DNA from: Oceanospirillaceae bacterium
Lineage (GTDB): Bacteria; Pseudomonadota; Gammaproteobacteria; Pseudomonadales; Balneatricaceae
Reading direction: 5' to 3'
Length of the DNA stretch: 49,574 bases
NCBI GenBank assembly: GCA_013215375.1
Contig: JABSRB010000041.1
Span: forward strand, 1 to 49,574
Within the stretch, counting starts at the first letter, position 1; every line of letters starts with the position of its first letter. The translations under genes were made by a program, and so were the position numbers. Positions 28,719-47,812 of this stretch are shown one piece after another. The notes beneath the pieces were generated by a model that saw nothing but the letters and a program-made list of their open reading frames with translations, did no database searches and was not told the DNA's origin.

Positions 28719-30239
28719 ATGGTCAAGCACATAGTCTATGGCGATTTAAACTGCCCTTATAGCTATGCTCTACATGAAAAGTTAAAGTCCCTTGACCATT
28801 TAGATCAGGTCGAATACCGCTTAGTAGAGCACGCTCCTGACCTAGGTCTTTATGGCAACCGTCCAGAGATTTTGACCGAATTGGCCAGCGATGTATTCGC
28901 CGTGCGCTCCCTCGCTGAAGACGTGCCATTGTCTCTCCCTCCAGAGCGCCCCGATAGCCGCTTCGCAATTTTGTGCATTATCGCGGCGCAAATGGTCGAT
29001 GTGGCGAAAGCCAACGTATTGCGTGAACTTTTTTATACGGCGCTGTGGGTCGATGGCAAAGACATTTCCTGCCCCAGTGTTATTTTTAAATGCATAGAGC
29101 AGGCAGGCTTACCCCTAGAATTAGAAGTCGATGAAGACTCAGAAGAGCAACTCGAGCAATGGCAAGCCCAGTGGGATCGCTCTAAAGTGGGCTCTAGAAT
29201 ACCTGCAATGATTGCACCGGATGATCGCAAACTACTGGGACTGCCTAGCATTGTTGATATCCAAGCCTTTTTCTCAGGTAAGGAGCAAAATTTACAACAC
29301 GACTCTTCAAAATTACAGCGCTCTTCCAGCTTGCGCTCGATCGCTATTCTTTGCACTGGTGATATCGCCAGCATGTGGGCGCCGATTGAATCTATTCGCG
29401 GTGAATACAACCTACTGTTACCCGCCTCCATGGAAGAGTTAAAGCAACTATTCGACTCTGAAGATCACTCCCCAGATTTAGTACTGCTACACGCCGATGA
29501 ACATTGGAACGACTTATTACATGGTTACCAAAGTTTTATCGAACGCATGAAAATTAGCTACACCCCCATCGCCATCATCGGCGCAGAAGACAACGACACT
29601 TTAGAGCTATCAGCCTATTCAGCAGGAGCTGCCGATTACATCACTAAAGGGCGCTCATCGGGCATACTCAAAGCGCGCATCGGCATGATGTTAGAGCTGA
29701 AAAAATCCCGTGATTTCCTAGAGCGTTCAGCGCGCATCGACGGTTTGACCGGCATCAACAACCGCCGTGAATTTGAAAAGCTTCTCGAACAAGAGTGGCG
29801 TCGCAGCTCTCGCACCAACCAATCTTTAGCGCTAATCATGTTAGATGTCGACTTTTTCAAGCCCTTTAACGACAGATACGGCCATTTAGCCGGCGACTCT
29901 GCACTTAGGAAAATATCCGAAGCACTGCAGAGCACCATGAGCAGACCTTACGATGCAGTGTGCCGTTATGGCGGTGAAGAGTTTGCGATTTTGATGCCTG
30001 AAACTAATTCAGCGGGGGCTAAAAAAGTAGCCAACGAGCTGCGCAAAGCCATTATGGCACTAGAGATCCCCCACGATAAATCCTCGGTGGCCAAGATAGT
30101 AACAGTCAGTCAAGGTATCTCCTGTTTTGTACCCAACGATACCAACTCTCCTATGTTATTGATCCAAGTCGCTGATGAGGCTTTATATAAAGGCAAGAAT
30201 AGCACCCGAAATGCAGTGACTTTAGCGGGGGAATCATAA
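28719..30239 (+). CDS. DsbA-fold / pseudo-receiver / GGDEF fusion protein
   Basis: A 506-residue cytoplasmic protein (no signal peptide, no membrane span) in three parts. Residues 1-185 look like a DsbA/HCCA-isomerase thioredoxin fold: NCPYSY has only the first active-site Cys (C12) and Ser at the second (S15), and RIPAMIA carries the cis-proline (P162). Residues 205-320 resemble a response-regulator receiver, but the phospho-acceptor Asp is His (LVLLHAD, H258), although the Lys (DYITKG, K310) is kept. Residues 330-505 are a GGDEF domain with GGEEF at 418-422 and the inhibitory RxxD at 409-412, so cyclase activity is plausible. It follows phoU after a terminator; no Pho box was seen. The ribosome site is AAGGAG. 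Confidence 0.82.
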   Translation: MVKHIVYGDLNCPYSYALHEKLKSLDHLDQVEYRLVEHAPDLGLYGNRPEILTELASDVFAVRSLAEDVPLSLPPERPDSRFAILCIIAAQMVDVAKANVLRELFYTALWVDGKDISCPSVIFKCIEQAGLPLELEVDEDSEEQLEQWQAQWDRSKVGSRIPAMIAPDDRKLLGLPSIVDIQAFFSGKEQNLQHDSSKLQRSSSLRSIAILCTGDIASMWAPIESIRGEYNLLLPASMEELKQLFDSEDHSPDLVLLHADEHWNDLLHGYQSFIERMKISYTPIAIIGAEDNDTLELSAYSAGAADYITKGRSSGILKARIGMMLELKKSRDFLERSARIDGLTGINNRREFEKLLEQEWRRSSRTNQSLALIMLDVDFFKPFNDRYGHLAGDSALRKISEALQSTMSRPYDAVCRYGGEEFAILMPETNSAGAKKVANELRKAIMALEIPHDKSSVAKIVTVSQGISCFVPNDTNSPMLLIQVADEALYKGKNSTRNAVTLAGES

Positions 30240-30310: not shown

Positions 30311-31819
30311 TTAACTAGCAGACTTAAAAATTCTACCTTTAGCTTGTTTCCACAAAGTGGTTTTTGAGACAACAATCAACATAATCGAAATAAATAGCAC
30401 TAGTGACAGTGGGCTCATCAGCAAATTGATAAAGAAATCAGGCACGCTCTCACGCTCCAAAATAATCGATCTACGCCAGCTCTCATCCATCAAACGGCTC
30501 AAGATAACACCTAAGATCACAGGCCCCACGGGATAATCATATTGCTTCATGAAGTAACCGATCACACCAAAGCCTAACATCCACCACACATCGGCGATCG
30601 AGTTATTAATCGCATAAGCACCCACAACTGATAATAGTAAAATGAGCGGGAGCAATACGCCTTTCGGGCACTCCACGATTTTAGCGAATAGTTTGATACC
30701 CGTGAGACCAAAGATCAGTACAAAGATATTCGCCAGCGTTAAGTTACCTACCGTAAACCAAAACATCTGAGGGTTTTCAGTCAGCATCAATGGCCCGGGA
30801 TTTAAGCCATGTATAAACAGCGCGCCAAGAAATACCGCCGTTACCGCATCGCCTGGAATACCTAGGGTCAGCATTGGAATAAAAGCACCGCCAACAGCCG
30901 CATTGTTAGCCGCTTCCGGTGCGATCAAACCCTCTTTGGCACCTTCACCAAAAGGTACTTCTGGATTTTTAGTGACACGTTTAGCGTGGTCATAGGCCAT
31001 CAGTGCGGCAATGTCACCGCCAGTACCTGGCAATGCGCCGACCACTACACCAATAGTCGAGGTCTGTAAGCTCAGTGGTAAATATTTTTTAACATCGCTC
31101 CAGCGCGGGATAATACGATCGATTTTTTGCTTAATAGCAGTCTTATCCATAAAGTGCAATTGGGTCAGCGCTTCAGAGACTCCAAATAAACCGATCATCA
31201 CCGCGATAGGACTAATACCGTTCCACAGCTCTACCACGCCAAAAGTAAAACGCTCTTCTGCGGTTAACGGGTCGAGGCCAACGGTGCCAATTAACACCCC
31301 AAAAGAACCGGCAAAGACCCCCTTTAATAAATTATTACCTGAGAGTGACCCCACCAGCATGATACCGAGAACCCCCAACATTAAATAATCTCTGGGCTGG
31401 AACAGCAGCGCAAAATCACTGACCACCGGAGCAGCTATTGCCAATACCACAATACCGACAAAACCACCGATCACTGACATTACAGTCGACAGGCCAATCG
31501 CCTCGCCTGCCTCGCCTTTAAGCGCCATCGGATAGCCATCTAGCGCCGTCGCTATGGCAGAAGGTGCACCGGGAATATTAAGCAAGATCGCAGTTCGCGA
31601 ACCACCGTAAACACCCCCCATAAAAATCCCCGTCATCAGGCAGAGTGCGTTGTTTACATCCCATGAAAAAGTAAAAGAGATCAGTATAGAGACCGCCATC
31701 GTTACCGACAAACCCGGTATCGCGCCGATATAAACCCCTAAAAAAGTACCCAGCGCCGTCAGGCCTAACAGCTGTGGTGACATCCAAGAAGTAGAGAAAA
31801 AGCTTAGTGCTTCCATCAT
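30311..31819 (-). CDS. tctA: Tripartite tricarboxylate transporter large permease, TctA family
   Basis: Large membrane subunit of a TTT secondary transporter for organic acids. The 502-residue protein has about twelve hydrophobic segments and the family motif GxYxGAIPGLxVTMAVS near residue 27-43, GGSRTAILLNIPGAPSAIATALDGYPMA (about 75-100) and the second-half repeat GALPGTGGDIAALMAYDHAKR. It starts 5 bases after tctB and ends at a terminator. TTT systems need a soluble binding protein, here the tctC product upstream. The substrate is not known; the neighbouring quinate and protocatechuate genes suggest a hydroxylated ring or carboxylic acid. Confidence 0.93.
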   Translation of the reverse strand: MMEALSFFSTSWMSPQLLGLTALGTFLGVYIGAIPGLSVTMAVSILISFTFSWDVNNALCLMTGIFMGGVYGGSRTAILLNIPGAPSAIATALDGYPMALKGEAGEAIGLSTVMSVIGGFVGIVVLAIAAPVVSDFALLFQPRDYLMLGVLGIMLVGSLSGNNLLKGVFAGSFGVLIGTVGLDPLTAEERFTFGVVELWNGISPIAVMIGLFGVSEALTQLHFMDKTAIKQKIDRIIPRWSDVKKYLPLSLQTSTIGVVVGALPGTGGDIAALMAYDHAKRVTKNPEVPFGEGAKEGLIAPEAANNAAVGGAFIPMLTLGIPGDAVTAVFLGALFIHGLNPGPLMLTENPQMFWFTVGNLTLANIFVLIFGLTGIKLFAKIVECPKGVLLPLILLLSVVGAYAINNSIADVWWMLGFGVIGYFMKQYDYPVGPVILGVILSRLMDESWRRSIILERESVPDFFINLLMSPLSLVLFISIMLIVVSKTTLWKQAKGRIFKSAS

Positions 31820-31824
31820 AATAT

Positions 31825-32343
31825 TTATGCTCCAGAGCTAAACTGTGAACCGATCCAAGCCATTATGTCGCGCTCAGGGATAAGCCCTTCTGGCAAAATA
31901 ACGCTGAATACTAATCGGAAAATAATGTAAATCACGCTCAGCGCTAGCAATGACAGTAAGAAGGAGCGAATAAAACCCTTTTTATGTAAGAACTGAATAC
32001 TGACCAGCAAGAATATAAAGGCTGAAATAATAAAACCTAAGGTTTCAAGCACAATCCCAAAGAGGAAAATAATCGCGATCATAATTGCCACTATTGGCGG
32101 TAATACCACGCGAAAGAAACTGCGGGCAGTATCTATTGAGGTTGGCCGCGCTAGGTCTTTTAGCAAATTAATGCAGGCAGCTAGCACCATCAGAGCAGCG
32201 GCGGCCATCGGCACTGAGCCTGGGGAGCTTAATTCACTAAAACCTGAAATTTCATAAGCTTGCCAAAACAAGAACACACTAAAAGCCAATACAATAAAAC
32301 CGAAGAACAACTCTCCGACTTTTCTAGGCAAGGGGGCAGACAT
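31825..32343 (-). CDS. tctB: Tripartite tricarboxylate transporter small permease, TctB family
   Basis: Small membrane subunit of the TTT transporter. The 172-residue protein has four hydrophobic helices with the short conserved segment SPGSVPMAAAALMVLAA between helices 1 and 2 that marks the family. It lies between tctC and tctA. The 193-base gap after tctC is longer than usual for a three-gene operon and contains a hairpin, which may lower expression of the two permease genes relative to the binding protein. Confidence 0.88.
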   Translation of the reverse strand: MSAPLPRKVGELFFGFIVLAFSVFLFWQAYEISGFSELSSPGSVPMAAAALMVLAACINLLKDLARPTSIDTARSFFRVVLPPIVAIMIAIIFLFGIVLETLGFIISAFIFLLVSIQFLHKKGFIRSFLLSLLALSVIYIIFRLVFSVILPEGLIPERDIMAWIGSQFSSGA

Positions 32344-32536: not shown

Positions 32537-33529
32537 CTATGGACGAGGGATGTTGAACTCTTCTGGAGAATGCTTAGAGAAACCAGCGTCATGGACAATC
32601 CATGAAGAGACAGAACGGTAGCTCTCTAGGAACTTAACCGCTTCAGCGCCACCGATACCCATGATAGAGAAGCCACGTTTGTCCATTAAAGCAACAAACT
32701 CAGGATTGTGAGATGCTTTAGAGTAAGCACTTGCTAGCTTATCGACAATGGCTTGATCAGTATCTTTCTTAACAAACACACCGAAGAAAGGGCCCCATGG
32801 TAGATAGGTAGACAATCCAGGGAAAGTCTCTGTGATCGGCGCTGTGTTTGGTAGTAATTTGTTGACTTTATTGTCCACCAAACCAATCACTTTCATCCGG
32901 CCCGCTTTAATGTGCTCAATAGATGCACCTAATACAGCAGGCATTATATCAACGGTTCCCGCCTGTAGTGCAGTCAGTGCTGGACCGTCACCATTGTAAG
33001 GGACTTTGATTAAATCGAGTTTAATCTGTGAATCAAGCATCGCCAAAACGATTGAAGACAAGCCTCCTTTACCGGTTGAACCGGTTTTTACTTTACCCGG
33101 GTTCGCTTTAGCGTAATCAGTGAACTCTTTCATGTTGTTGTAAGGCGCATCGTTATTCGCTACAAATATTGGCACACCGCGCGCAAGGATGTTAATTGGC
33201 GTAAAATCACTGTAATCAATTTTCGCAAGGCCAAGCGTTTTATACATTTGTGGATTTTCAGCACCCATTAACAACGTATAGCCGTCTGCTTTTTTTGCGT
33301 ATACATACTTAGTCGCGATAGCACCAACACCACCAGTACGGTTAGTCATGATAATATCAACGCCCAGCTCTTTTTCAGCATGTGGCGTGACAGAGCGCAT
33401 CACAGTATCAGTAGAACCGCCGGCTCCCCACTGGATCACACCTTGAATATCTTTTTGAGGAAAATCAGCAAATGCCGGAGTGGCAACGATTGATAGTGCG
33501 ACCAACGCACCTAGAATACTTTTTTTCAT
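32537..33529 (-). CDS. tctC: Tripartite tricarboxylate transporter substrate-binding protein, TctC family
   Basis: Periplasmic binding protein of the TTT transporter. A signal peptide ends at AFA (about residue 21). The Bug/TctC fold is shown by IQGVIQWGAGGSTDTVMRSV near the start, NRTGGVGAIATKYVY, the KTGSTGKGGLSSIV loop and PYNGDGPALTALQAGTVDI. At 330 residues it is normal length. It is the first gene of the operon, divergent from a GntR regulator across 193 bases that include an inverted repeat. The Bug family binds many carboxylates; the ligand here is unknown. Confidence 0.93.
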   Translation of the reverse strand: MKKSILGALVALSIVATPAFADFPQKDIQGVIQWGAGGSTDTVMRSVTPHAEKELGVDIIMTNRTGGVGAIATKYVYAKKADGYTLLMGAENPQMYKTLGLAKIDYSDFTPINILARGVPIFVANNDAPYNNMKEFTDYAKANPGKVKTGSTGKGGLSSIVLAMLDSQIKLDLIKVPYNGDGPALTALQAGTVDIMPAVLGASIEHIKAGRMKVIGLVDNKVNKLLPNTAPITETFPGLSTYLPWGPFFGVFVKKDTDQAIVDKLASAYSKASHNPEFVALMDKRGFSIMGIGGAEAVKFLESYRSVSSWIVHDAGFSKHSPEEFNIPRP

Positions 33530-33722: not shown

Positions 33723-34394
33723 ATGCAGGAACATGATAGCAGCTCAGCTTATCTAAGATTAAGAACAGACATTTTAGATGGCAGCATTGAACCATCAAGT
33801 AAATTATCGATCAGCCAATTAACGGGTGTCTACAAATCCAGCGCTGCTCCCGTAAGAGAGGCGCTGTCACGACTATCCGCTGAGGGGTTGGTAATACGTA
33901 AGGGACAGCGCGGTTACTGGGCAGCTCCGATCTCTTTAGATGAGTTTAAAGAAGTTTCTAGGTTGCGTTTGATGCTGGAGGTTGACGCCTTCAAACAATC
34001 CATCGAAAAAGGTGATCTTGAGTGGGAAGCGCAAATTGCGGGTGCCCGTCACCGAGAAGTCACCATTCGCAAGCAGGCGTTTGAGGGTGCTATGCAAGGC
34101 GATATAGTCACCACTTTAATCAAAGAAAACAGGCGCTTTCACTTGGCTTTGATCAGTGCTTGCCCTTCTTTTTGGCAATTGCGTTTTATTTCAACACTTT
34201 ATGATCAATCAGAGCGCTTTCGCCGACTATCACTATTAAATACTCATCAAAACCCACAGGAACCAAGAGTCGACGATCATCAGCTCATCATGGACGCTGC
34301 CTTTGCGCGCGATACCAGCGGAGCTTGTGAGTTACTTTATCAGCACATTGAGCGCTCGACATCCCAAGTTATTGAGAATCTGTTTGACCAATAA
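33723..34394 (+). CDS. GntR-family regulator (FCD type)
   Basis: A 223-residue transcription factor. The N-terminal winged helix is clear (YLRLRTDILDGSIEPSSKLSIS ... SAAPVREALSRLSAEGLV, about residues 10-60), and the C-terminal part is all-helical like FadR/FCD ligand-binding domains (with RHREVTIRKQAFEGAM, NRRFHLALISACPSFW). GGAGGGG lies 4 bases before the ATG. It is divergent from tctCBA, the usual position for its regulator, and its 3' end overlaps the convergent sugar-isomerase-like gene by 26 bases. The ligand could be a quinate or protocatechuate intermediate; this is inference. Confidence 0.9.
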   Translation: MQEHDSSSAYLRLRTDILDGSIEPSSKLSISQLTGVYKSSAAPVREALSRLSAEGLVIRKGQRGYWAAPISLDEFKEVSRLRLMLEVDAFKQSIEKGDLEWEAQIAGARHREVTIRKQAFEGAMQGDIVTTLIKENRRFHLALISACPSFWQLRFISTLYDQSERFRRLSLLNTHQNPQEPRVDDHQLIMDAAFARDTSGACELLYQHIERSTSQVIENLFDQ

Positions 34395-35208
34395 GCTTCT
34401 GTAGATAGTGCAAACTATCGATCACTGCCGAGTGAATCATCGTTCCAGAAAAAGTCGGATAGGAAAATACGTCTGCATTTAGAGAGTAGAAACCTGCGTA
34501 GCCACGTTTTTCTAGAATAGTAATTATTCTTTCAACGTAGGGCGCAAAAGAGCCTGCAGTAGGCAGCCGTGTGGAAATATTTTCAGTAAGCTCTCCGCTG
34601 CCTCCTTCAACAGCCGATAATTGCACTAGACCAATTAATTCAATAGGCACCGCTTGCAGCATTTTTTCGACGCTGGCAGCGCTGCTGTTTTGTAATGATA
34701 TGTTGTCTATCACCAAACACAAATTTGCATGATCAGTTTTATTGAGTAAGCTTATTACCTGGGCATAATTACTAAGGCTCTTTGAGCTTGGCAAGGGTTT
34801 TAGCCCTATGCGCACCCCCCTAACAGTTCCCAGCATTGCCAGAGCTTTTAATGGCTCTACCATCGCCTCGAGGCCTGTTTTACTATTATTTTTAAGCGCC
34901 GGTGTTACCAGTAATAAATCTGCATTTATCTCAGCCATTAAACGTAAATTTGACTTGGCCAAATTCATTTTATATTCCATCAAATGTGACGGATGGCCCA
35001 AAAAATCTCGCAGCTCATGAAAGGCAGCCACCTTTAATTCGCTCGCCCTCAACAGACAGGCATTGCTCTGTAAGGTTTGGTCGGTCGAGGTCAAGTCGGT
35101 ATTGCCTATCTCTATCGCCGAAAATTCAAGCGCTGCCGCCTGTTTGAGCTTAGCTTCCAGATTTCCAGGCAAGAATGCGACGTTCAAAATTATCCGCTGC
35201 CGAGTCAT
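34369..35208 (-). CDS. Degenerate QuiC-like TIM-barrel protein (split N-half)
   Basis: A 279-residue sugar-phosphate-isomerase-like TIM barrel that lines up end to end with the N-terminal domain of the QuiC dehydratase two genes upstream. Two of the four catalytic metal ligands of that enzyme are lost: the first Glu is Lys137 (GLKPL for GYEAL) and the last Glu is Asn244 (YSLNADVF for LSHEIFND). The Asp (D168, VIDN) and Gln (Q196, LVQLSA) remain, and the His after the Asp is Ser. Normal 3-dehydroshikimate dehydration is therefore unlikely. Its start overlaps the previous gene's stop by 4 bases, so the pair is translationally coupled. Role unknown: pseudoenzyme, partner of QuiC, or altered activity. 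Confidence 0.8.
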   Translation of the reverse strand: MTRQRIILNVAFLPGNLEAKLKQAAALEFSAIEIGNTDLTSTDQTLQSNACLLRASELKVAAFHELRDFLGHPSHLMEYKMNLAKSNLRLMAEINADLLLVTPALKNNSKTGLEAMVEPLKALAMLGTVRGVRIGLKPLPSSKSLSNYAQVISLLNKTDHANLCLVIDNISLQNSSAASVEKMLQAVPIELIGLVQLSAVEGGSGELTENISTRLPTAGSFAPYVERIITILEKRGYAGFYSLNADVFSYPTFSGTMIHSAVIDSLHYLQKLIGQTDSQ

Positions 35209-35963
35209 TTGTTGAGCACTTCAATCTGGAAGCCAATCGCCGCGGGGATGTTTTTCACATAATGGGATGATTGACTAGTGCACTGGTTATCAGCGCTATT
35301 GCTATGCGACGCTTGCATAAATGTCATAGTAGCAATCCCCTCATCTGCAATATCATCGCCTTGCTTAGTGATCAGTTTCAATCTAAATGAGTGATCAGGA
35401 CTCAGCAAATAATCTCCCTGTTGGGTGAAGTGTAGCAGCCCAGTGAAAAAATCTTGCCATTGCCGAGTATGCGAAGTGGCTATATTCAGTGAGAGACTCG
35501 CTATTTTACTAAAGATCTCTGTGGGTACACCTACAGGCTCAACATTGGTAAAATCAATATCGTAAATACTAAAATGGGCATGGTTGTTTTCCACTAGATA
35601 AAGGACGCAGCCGCCATTAATTTCTATCCCGGGAATATTTAATTCCATCGCTCCCAAAGAAGACTGACAGCTCCATGCTCCTTTACTTAACAGTTCAGCA
35701 TAGATAGTTGGCGCATTATCCACTCGCACAGCAAATGCTTTTATCTGGCTACCTGAGGCTTGGTTCCTCAGGCACAATTTGGCATCAGTCTCTTGGTTTA
35801 CAATAATATTCAGTGAGCCCTGACGATATAGATGCACCGCTTTGCTACGATGAGCACCCACTTTTACAAAGTGAAGTCGTCGCAGCAGTTTATCCAGCGT
35901 AGCTAGATCTGCAGTGGCAATCTCCACAAACTCAATCCCTTTAATAAGACCTTTTGTCATCAT
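35205..35963 (-). CDS. Degenerate QuiC-like VOC/HPPD-domain protein (split C-half)
   Basis: About 253 residues, related to the C-terminal hydroxyphenylpyruvate-dioxygenase-like half of QuiC. Shared blocks include GIEFVEIATADLATLDKLL, AELNIPGIEINGG and FSIYDIDFTNVEPVG. The vicinal-oxygen-chelate ligand His is replaced (SLSLNIA for IDHIGQ) and the C-terminal part is shortened by about 80 residues, ending IGFQIEVLNK where QuiC has GVFFEIVQR. Metal-dependent dioxygenase chemistry is thus doubtful. The ATG pair at 35958-35963 follows GGGTGGAACA; an upstream TTG is a poorer choice. It lies 57 bases after quiC and overlaps the TIM-barrel gene by 4 bases. Confidence 0.72.
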   Translation of the reverse strand: MMTKGLIKGIEFVEIATADLATLDKLLRRLHFVKVGAHRSKAVHLYRQGSLNIIVNQETDAKLCLRNQASGSQIKAFAVRVDNAPTIYAELLSKGAWSCQSSLGAMELNIPGIEINGGCVLYLVENNHAHFSIYDIDFTNVEPVGVPTEIFSKIASLSLNIATSHTRQWQDFFTGLLHFTQQGDYLLSPDHSFRLKLITKQGDDIADEGIATMTFMQASHSNSADNQCTSQSSHYVKNIPAAIGFQIEVLNK

Positions 35964-36019
35964 TGTTCCACCCGCCAATGCCTATGATTTATTGCCAAAC
36001 AAACGTAAAACACCTTTTC

Positions 36020-37891
36020 TCACTCATTCAACTGCGCTTTATATTGTCGCGATTGCGCTGCAAGTCTCACATGAGCATTGCCCTCACCGTAGTTTTGATA
36101 ATTATCGACGCGCTGCACTATCTCAAAAAACACGCCGTTTACCTCTTTGCTATAGCAGTGGAAAAACTCGCCCTCCTCACTGCGATCGTACATTAAATTA
36201 TGAGAGCGAAGCCTGGTTAATAACGCTTTATCTAAGCCAAATCGCGCCGCCAAATCCAAATAGTAGTTATTGGGAATTTCGAGCAATAACGCAGCGGGAA
36301 TGGCCGAGGCAGTGGCAAATATATCACTGCAGGAAAAGGCGATTTGCTGCACCCCAGAGCCTTTGGTTTTATCCAAGAAACGCTGTGATGAGGCCTTTGA
36401 AGTCGAAGTCATATTTAATGCAATACGTACCTTTTTGTTTTGGCTCACCGCCAATCGACTAACAATCAAACCATAGATATCGGGTAAATCTTGACTGGGG
36501 GTAATATCAAATTCTAACAGTGACTTGTAAAAGAACGCGGCTGATAAAAAATCGGTGTGTGCTACTGTCTGCCCAATATGATCAATGCGCTCTAAGCCAA
36601 TCCCCGCTTTTTCTATCCCCGCGATTGGCGCAAAGTCTACGTCATAAAAATTCACTTTACACTGATCATCAACAAAGTAGATTAAGCTGTCACCGATAGC
36701 GCGTATCGCGGGGATATTAAGCTCCCCAGGCCCCGCTTGATTCATAAAACTAGCACAGTGGTACTGCGCAGCGCGATCAAAGCTACGCTGTAAATTACCG
36801 GTCGAAAGGGCCAGTGCACACACTGAGCTACCGTGGGTTTTATAATGCTCGTGCGCTTGGCTGGAAGGCTCACGGTTGAGCACTAAATTGATCCCCCCCT
36901 GCTGCATCAACGTTACCTTTTTTGAACGATGATGATGGGTTTCGCGAAAGCCAAGTGCCTCAAGCAACTGAAAGAGTGGATTATCTACGCCCTCAGGCAA
37001 GGCAAATTCGATAAATTCCACATCTTGTATCTGCTCGTTATCTTGTTGCTCAGATGCCTCTTGTTTATCGGTATCTGGCGCTGTGGTCTGTTCTGCCAGC
37101 CAGATAAGAGAGCGCATGCCATCGACCGCTTTTTGCGGCGCCGGTGAGGATCTAAACTCGTCATTGAAGATTTCATGGGAGAGATAATCCGTATAACCTT
37201 TATCTTGCAAACATTGTACAAACTCTTTGACCTTCATATCCCCCTGCCCCGGGAAACAGCGAAAGTGCCGGCTGTAATAAAGCGATTCCATCTGCAGCGC
37301 AGGTGCATCCGCCACTTGCACTAAGGCAATTTTATCCACGGGAATTTCATCCCTGAGGATATCTAAAGTATTGCCGCGAGCATACATATGGAAATTATCC
37401 AGTATGATACCGAGGCTATCGTGATCTGCCTGTTTTACTATATCCCAAGCATCCCCATAATCTGCGGTGTATCTACCCCATGCTAATGCTTCATAACCAA
37501 TGCTAAAGCCTTCTTGTTGCGCCAGTTCAGCCAATTCGTGCAAATCGGCTGCGGCGCGCGCTTTATCATTAATCAAATGTGGGGATACGTTTGAGCAGAT
37601 CAGCAGTTTCTTAGTACCTAGTTGGTGCATCAGCTCAAATTTCTGTTGCGCGCGATAAAAATTTTGTGTGCGATATGGTTCAGGCATTGCTTCAAAATCA
37701 CGAAAAGGCTGCAGTGCGATTATTTCCAATTGCAGATCAGCTGCAAGCTGACAAATATCTGCAGCGCTGCCCTCGAACTGTACTAAGTCATTTTCAAATA
37801 TTTCAATACCTTGAAAGCCCGCAGCGGCAGCTGCTTGCATCTTTTCCGGCAAGGTTCCAGAGAGTGAGACTGTGGCTATCGATGTTTTCAT
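36020..37891 (-). CDS. quiC: 3-dehydroshikimate dehydratase QuiC (TIM barrel-HPPD fusion)
   Basis: Converts 3-dehydroshikimate to protocatechuate, the step that joins quinate/shikimate breakdown to aromatic catabolism. From the ATG at 37891 (GGAA 8-11 bases upstream) it is 623 residues. Residues 1-270 are a sugar-phosphate-isomerase-type TIM barrel with metal ligands E134 (GYEALAW), D165 (ILDNFH), Q192 (LVQVAD) and E240 (SHEIFND). After a Gln/Glu/Asp-rich linker (about 275-290) comes a two-part VOC domain like hydroxyphenylpyruvate dioxygenase, with H438 (IDHIGQ) and E590 (FFEIVQR), but Gln516 where HPPD has its middle His. This fusion is known from Pseudomonas QuiC1. It follows the dehydrogenase gene by 25 bases. 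Confidence 0.93.
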   Translation of the reverse strand: MKTSIATVSLSGTLPEKMQAAAAAGFQGIEIFENDLVQFEGSAADICQLAADLQLEIIALQPFRDFEAMPEPYRTQNFYRAQQKFELMHQLGTKKLLICSNVSPHLINDKARAAADLHELAELAQQEGFSIGYEALAWGRYTADYGDAWDIVKQADHDSLGIILDNFHMYARGNTLDILRDEIPVDKIALVQVADAPALQMESLYYSRHFRCFPGQGDMKVKEFVQCLQDKGYTDYLSHEIFNDEFRSSPAPQKAVDGMRSLIWLAEQTTAPDTDKQEASEQQDNEQIQDVEFIEFALPEGVDNPLFQLLEALGFRETHHHRSKKVTLMQQGGINLVLNREPSSQAHEHYKTHGSSVCALALSTGNLQRSFDRAAQYHCASFMNQAGPGELNIPAIRAIGDSLIYFVDDQCKVNFYDVDFAPIAGIEKAGIGLERIDHIGQTVAHTDFLSAAFFYKSLLEFDITPSQDLPDIYGLIVSRLAVSQNKKVRIALNMTSTSKASSQRFLDKTKGSGVQQIAFSCSDIFATASAIPAALLLEIPNNYYLDLAARFGLDKALLTRLRSHNLMYDRSEEGEFFHCYSKEVNGVFFEIVQRVDNYQNYGEGNAHVRLAAQSRQYKAQLNE

Positions 37892-37916
37892 AATAATTTC
37901 CAAACTGGGTAAAGGG

Positions 37917-38765
37917 TCAGACCAACTGACTGTTAATCAAAAAGCGGCGTGAATATTCTTCCATGACCTCAACGGCATCCACTTCAATGCCGGTAAATAT
38001 TTCAAAGGCATTTAAAGCTTGGTAATAAAACAGATCAAAGCCGGTGACAATGCGCAATCCCTCTTGCGCGCACTCTTGTAAAAATTGGGTATCTAAGGGT
38101 GTGTAGACGGCATCAAATGCCCATTGCTGGTTACCGATAGCTGCTACCTCAATAGGTAGCCCTAACATTGTGTAATGCCCTACAGGTGTACAATTTATTA
38201 AGCCATTACAGCCTTGGGCCTCTTTCGTTAACGAGGCGGCATCCAGAGTATTTGCCACAAAACCCGCCTCATTAAGCGCCAGCGCTAACGAATCTGCAGC
38301 CTGTTGGTTTAAATCGTAAATAACGACTTGGGTAGCGCCTAATTTAAACAGCGCAAAGGCAATTGCACGGCCCACGCCACCCGCTCCGATTAATAGCACC
38401 TTACCTGCTGCTAGCGAGCCCAAACGATGCTGGTAAGCGCGGATAAATCCGCTGTAGTCAGTATTGAAGCCCTGAATACTTTGCTCGGATATTTTCAAAG
38501 TATTGGTCGCCCCGACCAAATGTACCGCTTCATCGACGCAATCGCAGTATTCAAGCGCTATCTGCTTGAAGGGATAAGTAATGTTAACGCCCTGATAGTT
38601 TCGCTCACGCAATGCTTTTAACGTTGTTGAAAATGCCGCATTGCTGTTTTCTTTTGGCTCATGCAAACGATAGATCAAGGACAGTTTATTTAACTCACCC
38701 AATAAATGGTGCATTTGCGGTGAGCTGGATTTTTTGATCGATAATCCAATTAGTCCTAAATTCAT
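37917..38765 (-). CDS. Shikimate/quinate dehydrogenase, catabolic copy 1
   Basis: NAD(P)-dependent oxidation of shikimate (or quinate) to 3-dehydroshikimate (or 3-dehydroquinate). The 282-residue AroE-fold protein has the substrate residues S13/S15 (KKSSSPQMHH), the catalytic K67 (TYPFKQ) and D103 (NTDYSGF), and the nucleotide loop GAGGVGRAIA. The strand after it ends in VIYDLNQQ; an acidic Asp at this position favours NAD over NADP, as in catabolic members. It heads the operon that includes quiC and the split paralogues; the chosen ATG has AGAGG upstream. Copy 2 is at 40039-40896. Substrate preference cannot be read with certainty. Confidence 0.88.
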   Translation of the reverse strand: MNLGLIGLSIKKSSSPQMHHLLGELNKLSLIYRLHEPKENSNAAFSTTLKALRERNYQGVNITYPFKQIALEYCDCVDEAVHLVGATNTLKISEQSIQGFNTDYSGFIRAYQHRLGSLAAGKVLLIGAGGVGRAIAFALFKLGATQVVIYDLNQQAADSLALALNEAGFVANTLDAASLTKEAQGCNGLINCTPVGHYTMLGLPIEVAAIGNQQWAFDAVYTPLDTQFLQECAQEGLRIVTGFDLFYYQALNAFEIFTGIEVDAVEVMEEYSRRFLINSQLV

Positions 38766-40038: not shown

Positions 40039-40896
40039 TTAGTCAATCAGCTCACTGTGAATATCGAACTTAGCTTTAAAAGGTACTAGCGCGGCGAGTG
40101 GTTCTATTTGGCTCTGGGAAAAGAACTGGTAGGCATCAATGCCCTGGTAGTAAAACAAATCAAAGCCACTGACTAACGCCAGTCCTGCTTGATGTGCCGC
40201 CTTTAAAAACTCCGTATCAATCGGTGTATACACCGCATCAAAAGCCCACTCCTGTCCACCAAACAGTGTTGCATCCAATGGGTTTCCTGGGGTTTTAAGG
40301 TGACCGACTGGGGTACAGTTCACTAGGCCATCGACCTTTTTTGCGGTGTCCGCTAGTTGCACCTCTGCGATCACTTCGGCGCATATGCCCGCATTATTTA
40401 GCGCATCACTTAGAGATTGCGCATCCGCGACATTTAAATCGTAGATATAGACTTTGGTTCCGCCCACTTTAGCCAGTCCAAAAGCCACTGCTCTACCGAC
40501 ACCACCGGCGCCGATTAATAATGTATCCCCTGCTGGAGAGTCACCACGACGATGGCGATAACCGTGAATAAAGCCACTGTAATCGGTATTAGTAGCCACC
40601 ACTTTTTTGTCTTTAAAATACAGCGTATTTGTCGCACCTACTGTTGTCGCAGCTTCATCTGCATGGTCGACAAACTGCATCGCTATCTGTTTAAAGGGGT
40701 AAGTCACATTACAACCGGTATACCCTTCCTCGCGTAGGCGCTGTAACGTGACACCAAACATAATAGGACTGTTTTTACCCGGATCATTAAGATCATAGCT
40801 GACCTGCGCGCCGTAAATATTACCTAACATACAGTGCAGTGAAGGGGCGCGAGATGCCCCAATAGACATGCCGATCAACCCCAGCTTAAGTTCCAT
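40039..40896 (-). CDS. Shikimate/quinate dehydrogenase, catabolic copy 2
   Basis: AroE-fold dehydrogenase, 285 residues from the ATG at 40896 (GAGG about 9 bases upstream; the frame extends 21 codons further without a good start). It has K69 (TYPFKQ), D105 (NTDYSGF), GAGGVGRAVA and VYIYDLN. It differs from copy 1 at a substrate-binding site: SRAP at 15-18 where copy 1 has SSSP, so the second serine that contacts the shikimate carboxylate is Ala. The two enzymes may divide quinate and shikimate. It lies 145 bases after dctM on the same strand and may be read from the TRAP promoter. Confidence 0.87.
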   Translation of the reverse strand: MELKLGLIGMSIGASRAPSLHCMLGNIYGAQVSYDLNDPGKNSPIMFGVTLQRLREEGYTGCNVTYPFKQIAMQFVDHADEAATTVGATNTLYFKDKKVVATNTDYSGFIHGYRHRRGDSPAGDTLLIGAGGVGRAVAFGLAKVGGTKVYIYDLNVADAQSLSDALNNAGICAEVIAEVQLADTAKKVDGLVNCTPVGHLKTPGNPLDATLFGGQEWAFDAVYTPIDTEFLKAAHQAGLALVSGFDLFYYQGIDAYQFFSQSQIEPLAALVPFKAKFDIHSELID

Positions 40897-41001
40897 AAGA
40901 TAAACCTCAAAAAATATATAAAATCGGTGAACAAGAGAGCGGGTTTCAGCCACTCTCATTTAGATAAAAGACTGGATCAGTAAAGCAGCTGACCCGGTGA
41001 C

Positions 41002-45077: not shown

Positions 45078-45527
45078 ATGTTGAAATTAATGATTTTGAA
45101 CGGCCCTAACTTAAATTTACTCGGTACTCGCGAGCCCGACCAATACGGTCACGAAACCTTGGCTGATGTCGAAAGCATGTGCCGTGAAGCTGCTGTCGCT
45201 TACGATTATGAGGTTGATTTTAGACAATCCAACCACGAGGGTGTGCTGGTTGATTGGATCCACGAGGCCGGACAACTTCTCAAACGCGGTGAGCTAGCGG
45301 GGATTGTATTCAATCCAGGCGCTTACACTCACACCTCTATCGCACTCCATGACGCCATCAAAGGCACTAACGTACCGGTGATTGAAGTACATATCTCTAA
45401 TGTCCATAACCGCGAAGCGTTTCGTCATCACTCTTATATTTCACCCGCTGCTGCTGGCATCGTTGTAGGCATGGGTGTATACGGTTATGTCTTAGGCATT
45501 CATGGTCTGGCACATAAACTTGGCTAA
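45078..45527 (+). CDS. aroQ: Type II 3-dehydroquinate dehydratase, catabolic
   Basis: Dehydrates 3-dehydroquinate to 3-dehydroshikimate. The 149-residue protein has the type II signature: NGPNLNLLGTREPDQYG at the start with the active-loop Arg and Tyr, QSNHEGVLVDWIHEA, FNPGAYTHTSIALHDAI with the catalytic His region, and EVHISNVHNREAFRHHS. Length is typical. Here it lies among catabolic genes, between the TetR and AraC regulators, and so probably serves quinate breakdown, not aromatic amino-acid synthesis. Its 3' end overlaps the convergent AraC gene by 4 bases. Confidence 0.95.
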   Translation: MLKLMILNGPNLNLLGTREPDQYGHETLADVESMCREAAVAYDYEVDFRQSNHEGVLVDWIHEAGQLLKRGELAGIVFNPGAYTHTSIALHDAIKGTNVPVIEVHISNVHNREAFRHHSYISPAAAGIVVGMGVYGYVLGIHGLAHKLG

Positions 45528-46572: not shown

Positions 46573-46974
46573 ATGGTTTGGAAAAAACATGATTATGACA
46601 ATCTCCCAGGCACTGTGGTGTTTGATGGTGAATGTACACACACCTCTTACAATTTAAACAAAATGGCTTTTTCGTTTAACAGCCCAGAAAACCGCGCAGA
46701 ATTTGCTGATGATATGGATGCGTATTGTCGTAAGTTCGAGCTAACGGATGATCAGCGTGTCGCGGTATTAGACGGCGATTTCCCCGCGCTGCTACGCCTT
46801 GGTGGCAACATTTATTACCTGGCTAAGATTGCTGTATTCCACGGCATGACCATGCAAGATGCCGGTGCAGCTTTTCAAAACATCACCACTGAGCAATTCA
46901 AGCAAAAGCTAGCAGACAACGCAGCAGGCTTTCAACAACATTTAGAGAAGCGTGGAGGTTACTGGAATGGGTAA
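46573..46974 (+). CDS. ligA: Protocatechuate 4,5-dioxygenase alpha subunit LigA
   Basis: Small helical subunit of the extradiol enzyme that opens protocatechuate between carbons 4 and 5. The 133-residue protein contains the LigA-family segments SYNLNKMAFSFNSPENR, LTDDQRVAVLDGDFPALLRLGGNIYYLAKIA (in two parts) and the late MQDAGAAF helix, which cap the active site of LigB. It overlaps the ligB start by 8 bases (ATGGGTAA). AAAGGG sits before its ATG. Confidence 0.95.
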   Translation: MVWKKHDYDNLPGTVVFDGECTHTSYNLNKMAFSFNSPENRAEFADDMDAYCRKFELTDDQRVAVLDGDFPALLRLGGNIYYLAKIAVFHGMTMQDAGAAFQNITTEQFKQKLADNAAGFQQHLEKRGGYWNG

Positions 46975-47812
46975 GGTTATAGGCGGTTTAACAACATCTC
47001 ACATCCCAGCTGTGGGTAATGCAATGGCTAACAAGCTAGAGCAAGACCCGTACTGGAAACGTTTTTTTGATGGCTACAAGCCGGTTATTTCTTGGTTAGA
47101 AAAAGAAAAGCCTGATGTCGTTATCGTGGTTTACAACGATCACGGTCTAAATTTCTTTCTCGATACAGTACCGACTTTCGCCATTGGTTGTGCCGATTCT
47201 TATGCCAATGATGACGAGGGTTGGGGCATCCCCACGACGGCATCGTTTAAAGGTGATGCGCAACTGTCTTGGCACTTGTCTGAGTCGCTGATCGAACAGG
47301 GCTTTGATATGACCATGTGTCAGGAAATGAAGGTCGATCACGGCTGTGTGGTACCCATGAACTTGATGTTCAGACACTTGCCAGAATGGCCTTGTAAAAT
47401 CATTCCACTGGCGGTTAACACCGTGCAGCATCCTATGCCTAGCGCCAAACGTTGTTACGACTTAGGCAAAGCACTGCGTGTCGCGATTGAATCATATCCA
47501 GAAGATACCAAAGTAGCGATCTTTGGTACCGGCGGCATGTCACACCAGCTACAAGGTGAGCGTGCAGGTATAATCGACGTTGAGTTCGATTTAGAGTGCA
47601 TGCACAACATCGTCAATGACCCCGATAAGATGACGGCGTTAACCAACACCAACATCATGGAGAGAGGCGGTACTGAAGGCATTGAAGTGATCATGTGGAT
47701 GGTCATGCGCGGCGCGATTGCACCGAACGTTAACTTACTGCACAAGCACTACCACGCACCGATCTCAAACACCGGTGCCGGTGTGTTATTGATGACAGAT
47801 GCTACTGACTAG
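46967..47812 (+). CDS. ligB: Protocatechuate 4,5-dioxygenase beta subunit LigB
   Basis: Catalytic subunit that cleaves the protocatechuate ring to 4-carboxy-2-hydroxymuconate semialdehyde using non-haem Fe(II). From the ATG at 46967 (GGAGG 9 bases upstream) it is 281 residues. Ligands H12 (TTSHIP), H59 (YNDHGLNFF) and E240 (GTEGIEV) and the acid-base H193 (GTGGMSHQL) match the Sphingobium enzyme. The frame also extends five codons upstream. A possible terminator follows. The next pathway genes (ligC, ligI, ligJ, ligK) are not present in the window. Confidence 0.96.
   Translation: MGKVIGGLTTSHIPAVGNAMANKLEQDPYWKRFFDGYKPVISWLEKEKPDVVIVVYNDHGLNFFLDTVPTFAIGCADSYANDDEGWGIPTTASFKGDAQLSWHLSESLIEQGFDMTMCQEMKVDHGCVVPMNLMFRHLPEWPCKIIPLAVNTVQHPMPSAKRCYDLGKALRVAIESYPEDTKVAIFGTGGMSHQLQGERAGIIDVEFDLECMHNIVNDPDKMTALTNTNIMERGGTEGIEVIMWMVMRGAIAPNVNLLHKHYHAPISNTGAGVLLMTDATD

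Follow-up and report, generated by a model that had tools for sequence, protein, structure and literature searches.

Genes of the locus and sequence features of the pair

We analysed a stretch of 49,574 nucleotides from an Oceanospirillaceae genome (the window), in which a quiC gene is followed on the same strand by two short genes, one for a VOC protein and one for a TIM barrel. On the minus strand the order is shikimate dehydrogenase, quiC, VOC gene and barrel gene. Beyond the barrel gene lie a GntR regulator on the plus strand and then TctC, TctB and TctA, again on the minus strand. The features are:

40039 to 40959, minus strand: second shikimate/quinate dehydrogenase family gene
37917 to 38765, minus strand: shikimate/quinate dehydrogenase family gene, directly upstream of quiC
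36020 to 37903, minus strand: quiC, fused barrel-VOC dehydroshikimate dehydratase with all four barrel ligands; presumed working enzyme
35205 to 35978, minus strand: VOC half of the pair, 257 amino acids; HPPD N-terminal domain (Pfam Glyoxalase_5, E 1.6e-33), second domain shortened
34369 to 35208, minus strand: barrel half of the pair, a 279-amino-acid xylose-isomerase-like TIM barrel
33723 to 34394, plus strand: GntR/FCD regulator, its 3' end overlapping the end of the barrel gene
32537 to 33529, minus strand: TctC, solute-binding receptor
31825 to 32343, minus strand: TctB, small permease
30311 to 31819, minus strand: TctA, large permease of the tripartite tricarboxylate transporter
45078 to 45527, plus strand: AroQ, type II 3-dehydroquinate dehydratase
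46573 to 47812, plus strand: LigA and LigB, protocatechuate-type ring-opening dioxygenase

The VOC and barrel reading frames overlap by 4 bases, as a preliminary description of the sequence had noted. The VOC frame opens with TTG, and its first ATG lies at 35963, the coordinate used in that description; the true start is probably the ATG at 35963 or 35960. With AroQ, QuiC and LigAB, the window encodes a route from dehydroquinate to protocatechuate and on to ring cleavage that is independent of the pair. The window QuiC matches the NCBIfam model NF042435 with an E value of 3e-185 and 617 bits, below the 1200-bit cut-off despite its complete barrel ligands, and is 63-67% identical to the QuiC proteins of ten pair-bearing relatives. 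In its VOC half, the position of the second iron-ligand histidine of HPPD is a glutamine (GVQQIAF), as in other Nitrincolaceae and in the QuiC of a Rhizobiales MAG (L060); P. putida QuiC1 has histidine there. Scans of the sequence returned 21 promoter sites where 13.1 were expected and 6 terminators where 5.9 were expected. Elsewhere in the window, a GGDEF diguanylate cyclase (28719 to 30239, plus strand) carries an N-terminal DSBA-like thioredoxin domain, an odd combination.

The two proteins correspond to the two halves of QuiC, as had been proposed: in BLASTP searches against the window's own QuiC, the VOC half aligns at 28% identity over 178 columns (E 8e-17) and the barrel at 24% over 272 columns (E 2e-16), so that the likeness is not due to chance. 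The only NCBIfam match of the barrel up to an E value of 0.1 is the QuiC model, at 69.6 bits against the NF042435 cut-off of 1200, and a Pfam search assigned it to no family. Its single-chain structure model (pLDDT 88.5) has P. putida QuiC1 (5HMQ) as top PDB match in Foldseek, with a TM score of 0.85 on the query; other xylose-isomerase-like barrels such as IolE and epimerases share the fold with TM scores of 0.67-0.79.

We compared the barrel with the active site of QuiC1, using the residue list and numbering given in the portion of PMC7442255 at hand. The replacement of two of the four metal ligands holds: Lys137 aligns with Glu134 and Asn244 with Glu239, the Asn244 column being less sure than that of Lys137 because the sequences of the window's clade diverge in this segment (the two nearest relatives have Tyr). 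The other two ligands are kept as Asp168 (Asp165 in QuiC1) and the glutamine of an LVQL motif (Gln191), and so are the active-site arginines Arg67 (Arg64) and Arg214 (Arg210). We found further losses that the preliminary description did not contain: His168 of QuiC1 is replaced by serine and Ser206 by asparagine, and the RHxRxFPGxG segment carries a short deletion. The window's clade lacks His168, Ser206 and the RH of RHxR. The tryptophan of the KPLxW motif is a serine in the window barrel, the sole such case in its clade, for which we use marine as shorthand. Judged from these replacements, the marine clade is the most eroded one and may have no catalysis left.

The VOC protein shows the loss of the ligand histidine and the C-terminal truncation that had been reported for it: serine stands in the column of the first iron-ligand histidine and threonine in that of the second, the alignment stops short of the glutamate column, and most of the C-terminal domain is missing. 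In NCBIfam it scores 78.6 bits with the QuiC model and 69.4 bits with the 4HPPD model, both far under their cut-offs. Against PDB sequences HPPD (E 1.4e-26) ranks ahead of 5HMQ (E 3.1e-16), and a fold search with its single-chain model (pLDDT 84.9) had Pseudomonas HPPD as its top match, 5HMQ appearing from rank 20 onward. The N-terminal domain of Pseudomonas-type HPPD is thus its nearest neighbour in both PDB searches; unlike HPPD, the window protein has neither iron-ligand histidine and a short second domain.

Distribution and descent of the two-gene family

We searched 116 genomes of the window's family with a barrel alignment and obtained matches in 24 at E <= 1e-10, of which 17 have a stand-alone pair-type barrel, six only a frame of QuiC size and the last, G144, just a weak and partial match. 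The region containing quiC and the pair (34369-37903) is without a match in the six further genomes searched from the same genus, where only HPPD-size frames occur; it was either gained in the window genome or lost in those six. A scan of genome contigs with the window barrel found no relative. Carriers among 80 of 101 relatives include Marinobacterium species, Nitrincola alkalisediminis, Parathalassolituus penaei, Oceanobacter and an Amphritea MAG. The VOC gene precedes the barrel gene in all 20 marine stand-alone barrel loci read. In a second order (that of G593), a match at E <= 1e-60 was obtained in 27 of 399 genomes, of which 23 have a stand-alone barrel and the other four fused QuiC only; this order is probably Burkholderiales, because its barrels group with plasmid-borne pairs of Massilia and Vitreoscilla. 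A VOC gene lies within 1.5 kb of the barrel in 21 of these 23 cases, and in two of the loci examined a shikimate dehydrogenase gene sits between the two. The gap between neighbouring VOC and barrel frames was measured at 24 loci and, with the frame starts taken as called, lies between -25 and 36 bases. The pair is thus kept in relatives, a point on which the preliminary description had asked for a check. Locus L173 (G054) has a 177-amino-acid VOC-only frame beside a 219-amino-acid frame that resembles HPPD/QuiC; this may be an HPPD that was broken or split.

The gene surroundings recur in part. A GntR gene of the same cluster adjoins the pair in nine of 16 marine loci compared, and the TctA cluster lies within the fetched stretch (9-25 kb) in ten of 16. 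The regulator and the transporter would tie the pair to the uptake of shikimate-type compounds. Pairs with intact ligands are found beside shikimate dehydrogenase, AroQ or transporter genes on the Vitreoscilla plasmid and at several other loci compared. Genes annotated as a tripartite tricarboxylate transporter also precede the fused quiC on Thermus oshimai pTHEOS01 (L265), so that quinate/shikimate-type compounds may be the cargo of this transporter class in several phyla.

We reconstructed trees for both halves, with QuiC rows taken from the many fused QuiC proteins found (28 in the first trees, 13 in a 57-row barrel tree and 17 in a far-rooted tree); near copies L042, L044 and L047 were left out throughout, L050 from the first barrel and VOC trees, L088 from the 57-row tree, and the long branches L055 and L245 from the far-rooted tree. 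In the 57-row tree, 44 pair barrels, the window barrel among them, separate from 13 QuiC barrels at 100/100. The far-rooted tree uses three other AP_endonuc_2 barrels from pair-bearing genomes as an outgroup that is far from the pair barrels. Here, 17 QuiC barrels from three phyla, including Thermus, Nonomuraea, Klebsiella and Massilia, form one group (100/100). The pair rows need two changes in this tree: L242 and L243 are the earliest branches, and one stand-alone barrel is placed next to QuiC (99/93), which makes the base of split and fused forms less clear with this outgroup.

For the VOC half, a first tree gave three groups and no usable root. A tree rooted on ten divergent HPPDs, of which one was misplaced to the other side of the root, unites pair and QuiC at 88/94, and a tree uniting pair and HPPD is not rejected (AU p 0.42). 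In these alignments and searches the VOC half would thus be kin either to the QuiC VOC domain, toward which the rooted tree and, slightly, NCBIfam lean, or to HPPD, toward which the PDB searches lean.

The marine relatives' barrels are under purifying selection close to that on quiC: dN/dS is 0.030-0.132 for the barrel (nine pairs with a finite value, two of them with dS above 2.5), 0.147-0.229 for the VOC gene (eight pairs) and 0.024-0.051 for quiC (five pairs). Decay without function is ruled out for the marine family by these ratios in the relatives. Between the window copy and its nearest relatives dS is saturated; the frames are open at 53-59% identity.

The preliminary description had read the pair as a product of duplication and fission of the neighbouring quiC with loss of catalysis. 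Adjacency, homologous halves and lost ligands would fit a recent event of this kind with degeneration under way, and the loss of metal ligands in a retained pair does hold up. The proposed origin does not: the gene order is reversed relative to the QuiC domains, the unit is conserved family-wide, the halves are 24-28% identical to the window QuiC while QuiC proteins of relatives share 63-67%, and dN/dS in relatives is low. In the phylogenetic check that the preliminary description had named as able to overturn its reading, the barrel groups with other stand-alone barrels and not with QuiC, and a constraint uniting 16 marine pair barrels with four Oceanospirillales QuiC barrels costs 112 log units and is rejected (p-AU 1.2e-10). 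The reversed order, the separate clade and this test rule out the adjacent quiC as source of the barrel, and a recent, degenerating duplicate is a very improbable explanation of the locus. The pair represents an old two-gene family, a cousin of fused QuiC and no descendant of the adjacent gene.

Metal ligands and companion enzymes

We next mapped the metal ligands onto the barrel tree. Both glutamates are kept in 35 of the 57 barrels (22 pair, 13 QuiC) and both lost in 22, with no mixed case. The joint loss needs three changes on the tree, and so does lysine or arginine at position 134. The first lineage is the marine clade (17 rows), with lysine at 134, or arginine in the Oceanobacter group and G030; the second comprises L059 and L241 (Lys/Leu); the third, L238-L240, has Val/Gln and Lys/Asp combinations, L238 carrying valine and not lysine. 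Asp165 and Arg210 are invariant (57 of 57), Gln191 is present in 53 of 57, and the Arg64 position is arginine or lysine in pair barrels of the window's clade. The four rows without Gln191 (L026, L052, L054 and L056, from the Oceanobacter/Parathalassolituus/G030 group) all have Arg134, Arg191 and Ser239. A pair from Azoarcus pAZKH, which is absent from the 57-row tree and the ligand counts, keeps Glu134 and has aspartate at 239, so the two glutamate changes are not strictly coupled; the association seen in the 57 rows stems from only three independent changes. Genome counts below contain neither Azoarcus nor plasmid pairs.

In the VOC half, the second iron-ligand histidine is found in none of the rows aligned (19 marine, 23 second-order or plasmid), and its loss is thus common to pairs with intact and with lost barrel ligands. 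Among the 19 marine rows, 18 lack the first histidine and only that of Nitrincola retains it. Many second-order rows have a histidine one place off, and Azoarcus keeps the first histidine when the alignment is read by eye; the rows aligned do not appear to date the loss of the first histidine.

The ligand states were then set against companion enzymes. Second-order genomes keep both glutamates in 19 of 23 cases. Fused QuiC is present in all 19 marine genomes, in three of the 19 ligand-intact second-order genomes and in none of the four ligand-lost ones. In the 16 ligand-intact genomes without fused QuiC, the pair is therefore probably the dehydroshikimate dehydratase; Massilia putida has both an intact-type pair and fused QuiC on one plasmid.

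These counts bear on the suggestion of the preliminary description that the pair is a partner or allosteric subunit of QuiC. A marine pair that binds QuiC or its ligand and tunes the enzyme, non-catalytic itself, would agree with fused QuiC in 19/19 marine genomes, with the adjoining quiC on the same strand in the window, with a quiC in the fetched stretch (9-25 kb) of nine of 16 marine loci, and with retention of Arg210 and Asp165 beside the lost metal glutamates. Against it, quiC is far from the pair in several marine genomes (about 24-25 kb in G059 and G113, 46 kb in G416, 735 kb in G030), and the four ligand-lost second-order genomes have no fused QuiC at all. As a general role of the family the suggestion fails on these four genomes, and for the marine form we consider it unlikely.

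All four of these ligand-lost genomes encode an acetolactate-synthase-like TPP enzyme (E <= 1e-150), compared with one of the 19 intact second-order genomes (G992) and none of the 19 marine genomes; Fisher's test of TPP enzyme against ligand loss in the second order gives p 5.6e-4 from only two lineages. The enzyme is 72-78% identical to the copy at the Azoarcus pAZKH locus. Its distance from the lost pair is up to about 5 kb in three genomes and 16 kb in the remaining one; shikimate dehydrogenase genes are nearby, together with genes for citryl-CoA lyase or aldehyde dehydrogenase. Four loci (the three lost pairs L252, L253 and L255, and L264 of Azoarcus pAZKH) share the TPP enzyme and shikimate dehydrogenase and have genes for citryl-CoA lyase, aldehyde dehydrogenase or CoA transferase; they possibly encode a ring-opening route, not yet known, for shikimate-type compounds. 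Ring opening after dehydration is known from inositol breakdown. The pair might catalyse a different, metal-free reaction, for example of this kind, in a route that bypasses protocatechuate. The distribution of the TPP enzyme in the second order speaks for this, but the lineages are few, G992 has the enzyme with an intact pair, and its lack in marine genomes leaves the window unexplained; we regard this alternative as unlikely.

Taken together, fused QuiC or the TPP enzyme is present in 23 of 23 genomes with lost pairs and in four of 19 with intact pairs, with a Fisher p of 4e-8 that overstates the evidence, as only three lineages are involved and the TPP marker was chosen after looking. In the simplest reading, the pair keeps its ligands while it is the sole dehydratase and takes on a new role once this step is covered or bypassed.

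A pair that still works as dehydroshikimate dehydratase with two glutamates gone could be read from one genome (G1201), in which fused QuiC is absent and a Lys/Leu pair shares its locus with shikimate dehydrogenase, AroQ and a TRAP transporter. In marine genomes, however, QuiC is already present, and the window copy has also lost His168. Known enzymes of this activity require a divalent metal, according to the sections of PMC7442255 at hand. This makes a glutamate-free dehydratase distinctly unlikely.

Proposed function and relation to known dehydratases

We propose that the pair belongs to an old VOC-barrel family whose marine form is a metal-free enzyme or a ligand sensor around shikimate-type compounds, a reading to which we give a probability of about one half. 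In the second order, the unit mostly keeps its four metal ligands and would probably serve as the dehydroshikimate dehydratase of quinate/shikimate operons. In the window's clade, where fused QuiC presumably performs the dehydratase step, the barrel has exchanged Glu134 for lysine or arginine and lost Glu239. The lysine ammonium could occupy the former place of the divalent metal, paired with the kept aspartate. The barrel would give up metal-dependent dehydration and still hold a shikimate-type carboxylate: the kept arginine and aspartate together with lysine at a metal-ligand position suggest metal-free binding of a carboxylated cyclitol. The VOC half may act as a structural or lid subunit of the barrel, and the putative VOC-barrel complex would serve in the uptake and utilisation of shikimate-type compounds, either as an enzyme that works without metal or as a ligand sensor. 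The occurrence of lost pairs in genomes without QuiC is our reason for preferring this to a simple partner of QuiC. Extended to all three lineages, the Glu134 to lysine exchange with loss of Glu239 might be a change from cation to ammonium by which a dehydroshikimate dehydratase became an enzyme or sensor for a shikimate-type compound that needs no metal and has the HPPD-like protein as an obligate subunit; this broader proposal is a tentative possibility. The idea of a lysine in place of a metal recalls engineered xylose isomerase mutants. In the open-licence literature searched, we found nothing on pseudoenzymes among dehydroshikimate dehydratases, on lysine replacing a metal, or on such a xylose isomerase mutant.

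The closest known systems are the two-domain dehydroshikimate dehydratases QuiC1, QsuB and AroZ, represented by P. putida 5HMQ, with the same two folds and a shared active-site Asp, Gln and Arg. Peek et al. 2017 is reportedly the main structural paper on these enzymes. Unlike QuiC and QsuB, in which the barrel comes first in a fused chain, the window pair consists of two frames with the VOC gene first and a barrel from a separate clade; it has Lys, Asp, Gln and Asn for Glu134, Asp165, Gln191 and Glu239, lacks His168 and Ser206, and has a shortened VOC half. Single-domain dehydratases (AsbF and fungal Qa-4) likewise carry a dehydratase-type barrel alone on its chain; unlike them, as far as the class descriptions excerpted from PMC9324987 go, the pair barrel comes with a coupled VOC gene. 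The same excerpts summarise four classes of the enzyme and do not list a two-gene form among them; a QuiC2 class of Listeria is named in a reference list of the dehydratase literature consulted in part (PMC9324987, PMC7442255). We found no published account of a VOC-barrel gene pair in the open-licence literature searched.

Our findings point to a two-gene dehydroshikimate dehydratase, probably a working enzyme where fused QuiC is absent, that lies outside the classes described in the available part of PMC9324987. In addition, three lineages exchanged one and the same metal ligand for lysine or arginine and yet retained the protein; in this naturally occurring series, the departure of an enzyme family from its metal can be put to the test.
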